DNA from: Elusimicrobiota bacterium
GTDB lineage: Bacteria; Elusimicrobiota; Elusimicrobia; JACQPE01
DNA: 51,075 bases
Direction: 5' to 3'
NCBI GenBank assembly: GCA_016180815.1
Contig: JACPAN010000018.1
Location: 1-51,075 of the forward strand
A program made the translations under genes and the position numbers. Within the stretch, counting starts at the first letter, position 1; each line of letters begins with the position of its first letter. The notes beneath the pieces are model-generated. The model was given only the letters and a program-made list of their open reading frames with translations, was not told the origin of the DNA and made no database searches. Positions 36,742-40,541 of the stretch are shown piece by piece.

Positions 36742-37812
36742 CTATTCAGCTGAGCCGGCGACGGTTTGAAGAATGCCAAAATAAACAAAAAGAAGCGCAA
36801 ATCCCAACGGAACGGCGAATTTGGCCCAGTCGCGGCTTTTAATGCCCAATTTGCTCGCGGCAATGATATTGGGGATATTGCCGGGAATCAACATGCCTCC
36901 TGAAATCAACAACCCCAGCAAAAGAAACTCGATTTTCGCCAAGTCCATTTTCGGCGAAATCTCGGCCGCGGCCAAGGTGGCGTTATCCAAAACCGCGGAT
37001 AAGATATTAACCCAATAAAGAGCCGCGGCCGGCCAATGAATCAAATAGCGGTCCACCAAGGGGCCAAACCCCTGGCCCAACAAAACCAGGGCCGCGACGA
37101 ACGCGTAAACTTTGCCCGCGCGCACGATGATATCTTTGATGTTTTCCGGCTTATCCTCAACCAAACTTTGCGCGGGGCTGACCTTGCGCCCGATATAGAC
37201 GCCGGCTAACAGCCCCAACCCTAAAACGCCGGCCGCCACCCACGGCCAAAGAAGGCGCGCCAGGAACAAAAAATCGGCGTGGTAAGGGGGACCCGCCAAT
37301 TTAGCCGTGGCAATGGTGGCCAACGGCTCGCCGATGGGCGTCAGCACCGCGCCTAAGCCGATGGCGTAGCAGGCGATGATCACCACCTTGCGCTCATTAT
37401 CGCGATCGATGCTCAATCCGGTGATGACCTCGGCTAAAACCAGAGCCGCGATAATGGCGGTGATGACGCTCGAAAAAAAACCCAGGCCCGCCACCAGCAA
37501 AAAAAGAAAGGTCTTAAGCCCGATTTTTTCAGCGAACCTGGCGACATTTTTGCGGATCGCGTCCCGAATCGCGCGAAAGACGAAACCGAAGACCAAAACC
37601 GCGAACGAAATCTTGACCGGCTCAAGAAGAGCCTCGGCGATCAAATGCCGGCTCCATAAGCCGCTCACGGTCACCGCGAGCGAGCCCATGACCAACAGAA
37701 ACGCCTCCAGCTCTTCTTCGACCCAGCGCACCGAAAAAGGCAGCAGCAGCACCAGGCCCAAAATCGTACCCAGGCCGACGATGGTTAAAAGCTCATTGAT
37801 TTGTCCGATCAT
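36742..37812 (-). CDS. DUF1646 family membrane permease
   Basis: 356 residues, with about ten hydrophobic segments. The N-terminal LTIVGLGTILGLVLLLPF and VEEELEAFLLVMGSLAVTVS, the middle VIIACYAIGLGAVLTPIGEP and the late LLGLLISGGMLIPGNIPNII resemble the DUF1646 family, distantly related to ion-transporter and arsenite/anion permease folds. The repeated ALTP/PIGEP and IPGNIPN loops may be the two substrate hairpins. The substrate is unknown. It overlaps the end of the antiporter gene by 4 bases and so is made with it. Confidence 0.78.
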   Translation of the reverse strand: MIGQINELLTIVGLGTILGLVLLLPFSVRWVEEELEAFLLVMGSLAVTVSGLWSRHLIAEALLEPVKISFAVLVFGFVFRAIRDAIRKNVARFAEKIGLKTFLFLLVAGLGFFSSVITAIIAALVLAEVITGLSIDRDNERKVVIIACYAIGLGAVLTPIGEPLATIATAKLAGPPYHADFLFLARLLWPWVAAGVLGLGLLAGVYIGRKVSPAQSLVEDKPENIKDIIVRAGKVYAFVAALVLLGQGFGPLVDRYLIHWPAAALYWVNILSAVLDNATLAAAEISPKMDLAKIEFLLLGLLISGGMLIPGNIPNIIAASKLGIKSRDWAKFAVPLGFALLFVYFGILQTVAGSAE

Positions 37813-39071
37813 GGCGCAGGTTGCGCTTCGCGATCAGCCGGCCCGTTGTCGGGATAACGGGCGAATACCTTGCGAAAAAAACCCGGCAAATGATCCTTCT
37901 CGACGGCAAAACTCAGGCTCGCGGCCGCGATAATGCTGAACAAAATCACGGCATAAACCACGTCCTGGATGATGACGCCCGATTCGAGACCTTCTTGCAA
38001 CGGCAAGGAAGCCAGCACGGCCGCGGCCAAACCCTTGGGCGCCATGACCGCGGCAATGGACACATCGAAGCGGCTGATCGCTTTTCCCAACGACAGGCGC
38101 ACAACCGGGATTCTCAAGGCGAAAATGATCACGGTGAAAACCAGGCCGGCCAGGACCAGGACGAAATCATTGAGACGAATGGAAAGGCCGATGTAAACGA
38201 AAAAGAAAGTCTTGATCAAAAATACCGCCTCCGCGAAAACGGCTTTTTCAATGTCGTTGAGGTGCATGGTCTTCAAATTGGCGAATCGCCCGGTCAAGGG
38301 CAGGCGGATATTTTTGGCGTTGCCCAAAATCACGCCGAAGGCCAAGGCCGTGATGGCCCCGCTGTAGCCCAAAATCTCGGCGATCCCGAAGAGAACGAAA
38401 ATAAAGGCGGCGGTGGTGAAAATATTGTTTTCCAATTGGCGGACTCGCTCCAAGATCACCGACCAGAAAATGGCACCGATGCCCCCGATGACCGTAGACA
38501 ATAAAAAAGACGCGATGATCTGCCCCAGCATCAATCCCGGGCGGACCTCGTTAAACTTGACCGCCTGCAACAGGCCCAAGGTGACCACGATGCACAACAC
38601 GTCGCTGAACGTGGATTCCAAAACCAGCGCCGTTTTCGAGCGTTCAGCCAGGGATAAACGGCCGACCATAGGAATCACGATGGCCGAGGAGGTGCCGCCC
38701 AAAATGGCTCCCAACATGAGCGAATCCAGCGAGGCGAGGCCCAGCAGCAGATAGACCGCCGGGGCGACGATGATCACCGTGACTGTAAAATTGACCACCA
38801 TCAAGCGAACCCCGGCGCCCATGGATTCCTTGAGCGTGGCCGCGTTTAATTCCAAGCCGCTTTGAAAAAGAATAATCACCAACGCGATCATGGTGAAAAC
38901 GCCGCCCACGCGGCCGAACGCCTCGGGCGTCACCAAGCCGAACACCGGTCCGATTAAAAGACCTAAAAACACCAGGGGCAGAACATCTGGAATCCGGGTG
39001 CGATCGAACAAGGCTGTGAATAAATGCGCCAGGAAAACCAAAAGGCCGATCGAGATGATGACGATAGCCAT
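37809..39071 (-). CDS. Cation:proton antiporter (CPA1/NhaP type)
   Basis: 420 residues from ATG 39069-39071; a longer reading to 39131 adds 20 residues with no ribosome site. About twelve membrane helices. Family features: FLAHLFTALFDRTRIPDVL, FLGLLIGPVFGLV, FQSGLELNAATLKESMGAG, and the LEST(F)SDVL stretch with the ion-binding region. It exchanges Na+ or K+ for protons. The cytosolic RCK/TrkA domain found in Kef-type versions is absent. Co-transcribed with the DUF1646 gene, it may set ion balance. Confidence 0.86.
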   Translation of the reverse strand: MAIVIISIGLLVFLAHLFTALFDRTRIPDVLPLVFLGLLIGPVFGLVTPEAFGRVGGVFTMIALVIILFQSGLELNAATLKESMGAGVRLMVVNFTVTVIIVAPAVYLLLGLASLDSLMLGAILGGTSSAIVIPMVGRLSLAERSKTALVLESTFSDVLCIVVTLGLLQAVKFNEVRPGLMLGQIIASFLLSTVIGGIGAIFWSVILERVRQLENNIFTTAAFIFVLFGIAEILGYSGAITALAFGVILGNAKNIRLPLTGRFANLKTMHLNDIEKAVFAEAVFLIKTFFFVYIGLSIRLNDFVLVLAGLVFTVIIFALRIPVVRLSLGKAISRFDVSIAAVMAPKGLAAAVLASLPLQEGLESGVIIQDVVYAVILFSIIAAASLSFAVEKDHLPGFFRKVFARYPDNGPADREAQPAP

Positions 39072-39078
39072 GGAGCGG

Positions 39079-39107
39079 ATTATGTCAAAGTAATAAAGAA
39101 CGCACAA
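39079..39107 (-). promoter_or_regulatory. Promoter of the antiporter operon, possibly leaderless
   Basis: TTGTGC (39102-39107) and CATAAT (39079-39084), extended as TGACATAAT, are spaced by 17 bases. The -10 box ends 7 bases before ATG 39069-39071, and no ribosome site precedes that ATG. The region is shared with the divergent histone gene, whose own promoter is not clear. Confidence 0.4.
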
Positions 39108-39154
39108 AATGATAATTTGTTCCATCCGCATAGCATGAAAGGAGGTTCTCTTCT

Positions 39155-39346
39155 ATGGCCAAAGGCAAAGAAATGTTGATCGTCGGCAGCAAAGTCAAGG
39201 CGCTGCTCAAAAAAGCGAAATGCAATACCGCGGGCGACGCGCTCGAGGGATTAAACGGATGGGTTTACTGGCTGGTGGATGCGGCGGCCAAACGCGCCAA
39301 AGCCAACGGCCGCAAAACCGTCCGCCGCCACGATTTTCTGGCTTAA
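39155..39346 (+). CDS. Bacterial histone-fold protein
   Basis: 63 residues, with an AAAGGAGG ribosome site 9 bases before the ATG. SKVKALLKKAKCNTAGDALE forms a first short helix and loop, then LNGWVYWLVDAAAKRAKANG a long central helix, then RKTVRRHDF, the loop and last helix. The ANGRKTV.RHDF ending is the histone-fold RKT...D signature shared by archaeal histones and the bacterial proteins of the Bd0055 type. It is rich in Lys and Arg and should bind DNA as a dimer. It has no tail. A plus-strand enzyme gene follows within 8 bases. Confidence 0.88.
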   Translation: MAKGKEMLIVGSKVKALLKKAKCNTAGDALEGLNGWVYWLVDAAAKRAKANGRKTVRRHDFLA

Positions 39347-39353
39347 TCAACAT

Positions 39354-40541
39354 TTGACCTACGACGAGTGGCGCCGCCTCCTGCGGGAGGAGCGACTGCC
39401 TGCGGCCGTCGTCGATCTCGACGCCTTTGATCGAAACGCGCTTCTGCTCGCCCGGCTCGCCGCCGGAAAACGCCTTCGCCTGGCCACAAAATCCATCCGC
39501 GTTCCCCAGCTTTTAGCCCGGGCGCTTTCGCTGAAATCCGCTTATCAGGGCTTCATGTGCTACTCGGCGGAAGAAGCCCTTTGCCTGGGGAATTTCGGCT
39601 TCGACGATCTGCTGATCGCTTATCCCACGCTTCGCCACCGCGACTTGGCTTGCCTGGTCGAACTCAAACGCCTGAACAAACACGTGAGCCTGGTTGTCGA
39701 CAGCGCGCAGGGCATCGAGGCCCTCGCGCAAGCGGCGGCCCAAGGAGCGGGGCTGCTGCGCATCGTCATTGAAGTCGACGTGTCCGCGCGTTTTCCCGGC
39801 GATGTTCACTTGGGAGCGCGGCGAAGCCCGGTTCGAACCCCGGAGGACCTGATGGCCTTCGATGAAATAATCGCGCGCCGTCCCGGCTTGCAATTAATCG
39901 GCTTGATGGCCTATGAATCCCATATCGCGGCCATGATGGACAACAGCCCGGATGGATATCTTCCACGGTTTGCTTTGCGCCGGGCTAAAACCTGGACCGC
40001 GCGCCAAGTCGCCCGCAAGCGGCGCGAATTAGCCGAAGCTTACCAACGGCTTGCCCGCTCCATGGAATTATTCAACGGAGGCGGCACAGGAAGTTTATCC
40101 TTTGCCGCTCATGAACCGTGGTTGACGGAATTAAGCGCAGGATCGGGGCTGATGGGGCCTAGACTCAACGATTTCTATTCGAATATCCGTCCTGAGCCGG
40201 CCTGTTTTTTCGCGCTGCAGGCTTGCCGGTCGCCTAAACCAGGCATGGTCACTTGCCAGGGAGGGGGTTATATCGCTTCAGGTGCAGGCGGCCGCGATCG
40301 ATGGCCTCAGCCTTATCTGCCTTCAGGATCAACGCTCACCGCCCTCGAAGGCGCGGGCGAGGTGCAAACCCCGGTCAAACTCGGCCCCGGAGAAAACATC
40401 GCCTTGGGTGATCCCGTTATTTTCCGCCATGCTAAAGCCGGTGAATTGGCTGAACGGTTCCAGGAATATATTCTTGTATCCGGCGGCGTGATTTCAGGCC
40501 GGGCTAAAACTTATCGCGGCCTGGGTTGGTGTTTTTTCTAA
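39354..40541 (+). CDS. PLP-dependent D-threonine aldolase / D-serine deaminase-like enzyme
   Basis: 395 residues if TTG 39354-39356 starts it, giving LTYDEWRR, the family's usual beginning; an ATG at 39279 would extend into the histone gene. Neither has a strong ribosome site. The alanine-racemase-like barrel shows VVDLDAFDRNALLLARLA, the PLP lysine in LRLATKSIRVPQLL, and GFMCYSAEEALCLGN. The C-terminal DTA-like domain ends HAKAGELAERFQEYILV. It probably cleaves or deaminates a D-amino acid; the exact one is not certain. It converges with the rhodanese gene after 10 bases. Confidence 0.83.
   Translation: MTYDEWRRLLREERLPAAVVDLDAFDRNALLLARLAAGKRLRLATKSIRVPQLLARALSLKSAYQGFMCYSAEEALCLGNFGFDDLLIAYPTLRHRDLACLVELKRLNKHVSLVVDSAQGIEALAQAAAQGAGLLRIVIEVDVSARFPGDVHLGARRSPVRTPEDLMAFDEIIARRPGLQLIGLMAYESHIAAMMDNSPDGYLPRFALRRAKTWTARQVARKRRELAEAYQRLARSMELFNGGGTGSLSFAAHEPWLTELSAGSGLMGPRLNDFYSNIRPEPACFFALQACRSPKPGMVTCQGGGYIASGAGGRDRWPQPYLPSGSTLTALEGAGEVQTPVKLGPGENIALGDPVIFRHAKAGELAERFQEYILVSGGVISGRAKTYRGLGWCFF

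Follow-up and report, generated by a model that had tools for sequence, protein, structure and literature searches.

The window analysed here, a stretch of 51,075 nucleotides that represents one whole contig (JACPAN010000018.1) of an Elusimicrobiota genome assembly (GCA_016180815.1), carries on its forward strand a gene for a 63-residue protein (39155..39346, +), which we annotate as an alpha3 histone of the face-to-face (FtF)/HLp type on the basis of its open reading frame, a match to PDB sequences, an AlphaFold2 model, a Foldseek search and purifying selection. The frame consists of an ATG start, 63 codons and a TAA stop, and the opposite strand across the same positions is broken by a stop codon. 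Direct reading of the sequence reveals a strong ribosome-binding site, AAAGGAGGT (39138..39146, +), spaced by 9 nt from the histone ATG when measured from GGAGG, and GGAGG-like sites also precede most of the relatives of the gene; such a site would be compatible with high expression of the histone, although it does not demonstrate it. Relatives sharing 68%–79% identity with the protein are encoded in nine other genomes (L001-L005, L008, L009, L049 and L050), and comparison of the window histone with six of the nine yielded dN values of 0.18–0.21 against dS values of 1.2–2.4, the latter near saturation. Given these relatives and the mostly silent nature of the changes, 39155-39346 is a real gene.

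The histone gene is flanked on the opposite strand by the genes for an Na+/H+ exchanger (PF00999) and a DUF1646 membrane protein (36742-39131, −), arranged in tandem with an overlap of a few bases, and is followed by a gene for an alanine-racemase-N (PF01168) enzyme (39354-40541), the first usable start of which is a TTG at 39354, 7 nt past the histone stop codon. The original prediction had correctly placed an enzyme close downstream and had further proposed a divergent promoter region shared with the antiporter; the divergent arrangement is indeed present, but a simple scan found no sigma-70-type promoter on the + strand, and the shared region is therefore to be understood in a positional sense only. 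We compared neighbours across 13 contexts (the window, L001-L005, G057, G059, G236, G228, G007, G017 and G032), with open reading frames picked mechanically by length and some of them probably wrong. Runs of shared neighbours were confined to G057, G059 and G236, all from one genus, and the other shared neighbours were single pairs at differing distances, mostly of the ABC-ATPase and sensor-kinase kind, as labelled by reading. At E 1e-20, none of the 12 relatives searched contained a match to the racemase-like enzyme; the antiporter had matches in 3 of the 12, none of them from the same family, and at E 1e-40 the exchanger was not found in three genomes of that family. The neighbours are thus not conserved beside the relatives, which leaves a link of the histone gene to the antiporter or to the enzyme unsupported.

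The AlphaFold2 single-chain model, built with the largest of the three chosen alignment subsets (A1, 11 rows; A2, 11 rows; A3, 20 rows), has a mean pLDDT of 90.2 and displays all three helices of the histone fold, at residues 11-20, 27-50 and 58-61, in agreement with the helix, long helix and short final segment that the original prediction had read from the 63 residues. Helix alpha1 (codons 11-20; 39185..39214, +), delineated from the model, the alignment and published contacts (PMC12701072, PMC11317129), carries S12, K13, K15 and K19, which correspond to positions reported to contact DNA in HLp of Leptospira perolatii (9QT0, 9QT1, 9QT2; PMC12701072) and/or HBb (Bd0055) of Bdellovibrio bacteriovorus (8CMP, 8FVX; PMC11317129, PMC10627809). 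The central helix alpha2, defined by the model and the alignment, spans 24 residues with R47 near its end (codons 27-50; 39233..39304, +), and the truncated alpha3 of the model has only four (codons 58-61; 39326..39337, +). Alpha3 histones are described as histone-fold proteins with a shortened alpha2 and an alpha3 of only 3–4 residues (PMC11390915); the four-residue alpha3 and the top structure matches, themselves alpha3 histones, place the window protein among them.

Searched against the PDB with Foldseek, the model had only four matches below E 0.001, two HLp chains and two HBb chains, the best being 9qt0_A (TMq 0.86, rmsd 0.6). According to Foldseek and VIA-align, the model superimposes on HLp at 0.6 Å across 56–57 residues (TMq 0.86–0.88, Z 8.8–9.1), on HBb at 1.3–2.1 Å (Z 8.3–8.6) and on the archaeal HTkC of Thermococcus kodakarensis (9F2C; PMC11390915) at 0.8–0.9 Å (Z 8.2); the Z-scores of the first seven VIA-align rows spread over less than 1 and are to be read as tied, so that HLp is set apart by rmsd and identity, and the histone-fold proteins that come after these three have Z of 6.6 or lower (VIA-align). 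Sequence searches against the PDB ranked HLp (9QT0; E 1.1e-11, 47.6 bits) ahead of HBb (~1e-5, 29 bits) and HTkC (0.004, 20.8 bits), and a profile of 11 relatives kept this order (66.7, 52.6 and 39.0 bits, respectively). With histones, and no non-histone family, as the closest matches in both sequence and structure, the protein is a stand-alone bacterial histone-fold protein, as had been proposed; its noted richness in Lys and Arg translates into a net charge of +9 (K+R-D-E). Pfam and NCBIfam offered no family for the window histone at E up to 10, and across the 20 A3 sequences Pfam most often gave weak hits to families of the histone fold (CBFD_NFYB_HMF in 6, DUF1931 in 5); PHROGs returned one weak match (E 0.073). 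Two other histone classes were considered and rejected: the DUF1931 or double (pseudodimeric) histones require two folds per chain and the 63 residues hold a single one, and phage histones are defined by a C-terminal helical tetramerisation domain (PMC11390915), while the window chain stops two residues past alpha3.

FtF histones, reported as the only histone group to span bacteria and archaea (PMC12701072), are defined by a torus-shaped homotetramer, and the residues reported to build it in HLp are R49, N53 and R55, with R55 and D62 forming a clamp (PMC12701072). The structure alignment sets window residues 5-61 on HLp 7-63, and with this two-residue offset HLp R49, N53, R55 and D62 correspond to R47, N51, R53 and D60 of the window histone, all identical. 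These residues lie in a tetramer and loop-2 motif, R47...N51-G-R53-K54-T55-V-R-R-H-D60 (codons 47-60; 39293..39334, +; from the 54-row alignment described below and the HLp residues of PMC12701072), which includes the RxTxxxxD signature of alpha3 histones, the RD clamp (R53-D60). The HLp contact positions K15, K17, K21, T27, G29 and T57 are likewise identical in the window histone (K13, K15, K19, T25, G27 and T55), whereas T56 is replaced by K54, and two further tetramer contacts of HLp, S52 and T61, are not kept (A50 and H59). R48 and N52 of the FtF profile are reported to be missing from bacterial dimer histones (PMC11390915); both are present in the window histone, as R47 and N51.

We aligned the window histone with all histone rows kept, 54 in total, comprising 10 rows of type A, 3 of type C, 2 of type D, 36 of a second type (31 from the window's class and 5 from the genomes of L001-L005) and 3 PDB references; A to D are labels of this analysis, the window type being A. 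All 15 of the A, C and D rows have R47, N51 and R53 together, and likewise T55 and D60. Among the second-type rows, N51 is present in 0 of 36, R47 and R53 in 4 of 36 each, and the R47/N51 pair in none. The net charge is +7 to +9 in A rows (+17 in L004, which has a tail) and +2 to +4 in the 36 second-type rows. HTkC, a solved tetramer, has E at position 51 of this alignment, and N51 is accordingly not strictly required for the tetramer.

In the full tree, a branch supported at 92/81 separates the A, C and D types, HLp and HTkC from the second types and HBb. When columns 47, 51 and 53 and the loop-2 insertion were removed, the A type, the three C rows and HLp still formed one branch (95/97), and the two D-type rows and archaeal HTkC shifted to the other side; on these reduced columns the best tree did not unite the 17 FtF-type rows (the 15 plus HLp and HTkC) in a single clade (14% of bootstraps), yet such a clade was not rejected either (AU p 0.32). 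The histone trees rest on about 60 columns only, the branch of HLp is long (1.2–1.5), and the supported grouping of the window histone with the FtF class is one with a single bacterial FtF reference, HLp.

Several features of these rows deserve mention in their own right. The D-type proteins (L035:1453-1623 and L040:1136-1294, the start of the latter probably placed 4 codons late) end in SNGR(R/K)T(I/V)RP.DL and group with the archaeal FtF histone HTkC; in genome G009, unlike in the A- and C-type carriers, a D-type gene stands alone as the one histone match. Cysteine occupies position 23 in 10 of 10 A-type rows, and many FtF-type relatives have cysteines at or near the C-terminus (CACA in L002, L003 and L005; ICC in L010 and L012; YICK in L011; CTG in L049); both could possibly be related to redox or metal chemistry. 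The Oligoflexia relative (L004:3932-4180) has a Lys/Arg-rich N-terminal tail of ~20 residues, and positively charged tails are reported on most bacterial FtF histones (PMC11390915).

The genome of the window (2.85 Mb, 39 contigs, 99.5% complete) encodes, in addition to the window histone, a second histone and one HU/IHF protein. This second histone (59 aa; G000:C11:5533-5703, also L007:1495-1674) has an extra loop-2 residue and lacks R47 and N51, and its relatives constitute the common histone of the phylum; in 28 of the 31 second-type rows of the window's class the clamp arginine is replaced by lysine. We tentatively assign it to the dimer type from its lack of the R47/N51 pair, its place in the tree and what has been published on Elusimicrobiota, an assignment weaker than that of the window histone: the single-chain model is of low quality (pLDDT 76, with loop 2 and alpha3 unformed), and among PDB sequences it, too, matched HLp best (38.9 bits, versus 34.0 for HBb). 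The copy number that the original prediction left open can thus be given as one gene of the window type and one divergent second histone in this genome.

Window-type relatives are rare, being present at E 1e-8 or better in 7 of 247 genomes of the phylum (A-type in G000, G057, G059, G228 and G236; C-type in G007 and G017), and the three other genomes of the family, 81%–91% complete, yielded no A-type match. With a cut-off of E 1e-12, the second type occurs in 61 of the 247, including all seven A- and C-type carriers. The genomes of L001-L005 likewise have two histone matches each, the second without the R47/N51 pair in every case, and that of L001's genome, from a record labelled Elusimicrobia, falls inside the second-histone branch of the window's class (100/99), in line with an Elusimicrobiota origin of the window. 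The window histone is 75%–76% identical to its counterparts in two Lindowbacteria and one unassigned bacterium, 70% to that of the Oligoflexia and 70%–79% to those of its own phylum, whereas for the same pairs of genomes the identities between second histones are 48%–53%, 36% and 58%–69%, respectively. The FtF-type histone is therefore as similar across phyla (~75%) as within the phylum, unlike the second histones, a pattern suggestive of horizontal transfer; judging from these identity patterns, the A-type gene has probably spread between phyla. The tree by itself does not prove transfer, since a topology uniting the six A-type rows of the phylum to the exclusion of the other four could not be rejected (AU p 0.20), and no transfer vector emerged, as no copy of the window histone was found among the phage records, plasmids and viral contigs searched.

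The gene product is most likely a bacterial FtF alpha3 histone of the HLp kind, which would form a tetramer and wrap DNA. Since the prediction covers single chains only, the tetramer is deduced from the residues, and we infer the dimer, the wrapping and the abundance of the protein from homology. Two chains would pair through alpha2 in a histone handshake dimer, and two dimers would then assemble face to face into a closed, ring-like tetramer, with R47, N51 and R53, in the last part of alpha2 and in loop 2, making the contacts. DNA would be gripped without sequence preference by K13, K15 and K19 of alpha1 and by loops 1 and 2 (N24/T25/G27 and K54/T55) and would wrap around the tetramer over ~60 bp, by analogy with HLp, which is reported to wrap ~60 bp (PMC12701072). 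In the cell, the protein would serve as an additional architectural protein beside the divergent second histone and the HU/IHF protein.

The constant company of the second histone invites the rather unlikely alternative that the window histone operates in mixed particles, pairing with that protein in heterodimers or heterotetramers instead of forming a homotetramer. All seven genomes of the phylum with an A- or C-type gene also have the second type, compared with 54 of 240 others (Fisher p 4e-5, uncorrected for the kinship of the genomes and hence only indicative), and so do all five genomes reached via named contigs. Such co-occurrence, however, might simply mark lineages that tolerate histones, and the second type lacks the R47/N51 pair and, in the window's class, has an extra residue in loop 2. 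Furthermore, between phyla the second histones are only 36%–53% identical to that of the window genome, a divergence that the A type does not share, and co-evolution of the two is therefore not apparent.

That the window histone is instead a Bd0055/HBb-like dimer that bends DNA, as originally predicted, appears improbable. HBb is a clear relative, as the search and Z-scores given above attest; its contacts S9, K10, K12, K16, N22, T23, K52 and T53 have identical equivalents in S12, K13, K15, K19, N24, T25, K54 and T55, and loop 2 reads RKT, the HBb or nucleosomal form rather than that of HLp. Nevertheless, sequence, structure and both trees all bring the window histone closer to HLp than to HBb, and it retains the two residues that bacterial dimers are without; all four lines of evidence, the residues included, place it with Leptospira HLp and not with the Bd0055 type. 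The notion that the protein acts as a local regulator of the adjoining antiporter or racemase-like gene, prompted by its position between them and the 7 nt to the enzyme start, is very hard to credit, given that these neighbours are absent beside its relatives, that one histone fold fills all 63 residues and leaves no room for a further domain, and that the solved relatives are general DNA binders.

The family of the window histone, an FtF histone in the reading that we favour, is known, and histones in this phylum are not new either, persistent histone genes having been reported in Elusimicrobia (PMC10627809); the pairing with a second histone and the sharing across phyla are the points of moderate interest. 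The searched text of PMC11390915 and PMC12701072 mentions Elusimicrobiota for dimer and IHF histones and not for FtF histones, nor does it describe an FtF-plus-dimer pairing; the latter paper structurally characterises only one bacterial FtF histone, and the genus it comes from is reported to contain no other histone. With FtF-type and dimer-type histones in one genome, it becomes possible to examine whether the wrapping and the bending kind share out the chromosome or intermingle on it, and for what reason bacteria acquire a second histone. As a tentative proposal, which we consider doubtful but worth stating, a horizontally spread wrapping histone might be kept only where a resident dimer-type histone exists, resulting in two-histone chromatin alongside HU. 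If true, wrapped tetramer particles would occur together with bent dimer sites, or there might even be mixed particles, a bacterial counterpart of histone variants.

Among the characterised systems, HTkC is an FtF tetramer histone that shares R47 with the window histone and is close to it as a monomer (0.8–0.9 Å), but is only ~33% identical, has E at 51 and groups with the D-type rows of the window's class rather than with the window histone. HBb has the same alpha3-truncated fold, SK motif and RKTV loop 2, and most of its DNA-contact positions are kept in the window histone; by contrast, it is a DNA-bending dimer without R47 and N51, with ~37% identity and an rmsd of 1.3–2.1 Å. The closest counterpart is HLp, also of 63 aa (~52% identity, 0.6 Å as a monomer), with the same tetramer residues (R, N, R), RD clamp and alpha1 lysines; it is reported to be a tetramer in solution, to protect fragments of 35–72 bp and to reorganise the E. 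coli nucleoid (PMC12701072). The two proteins differ in loop 2 (RKT in the window histone, RTT in HLp), in two extra residues past the final F and in W36 and W39 of alpha2. Their genomic settings differ as well, Leptospira reportedly having just one histone and lacking HU (PMC12701072), whereas the window genome combines its HLp-like histone with a second histone and an HU/IHF protein.
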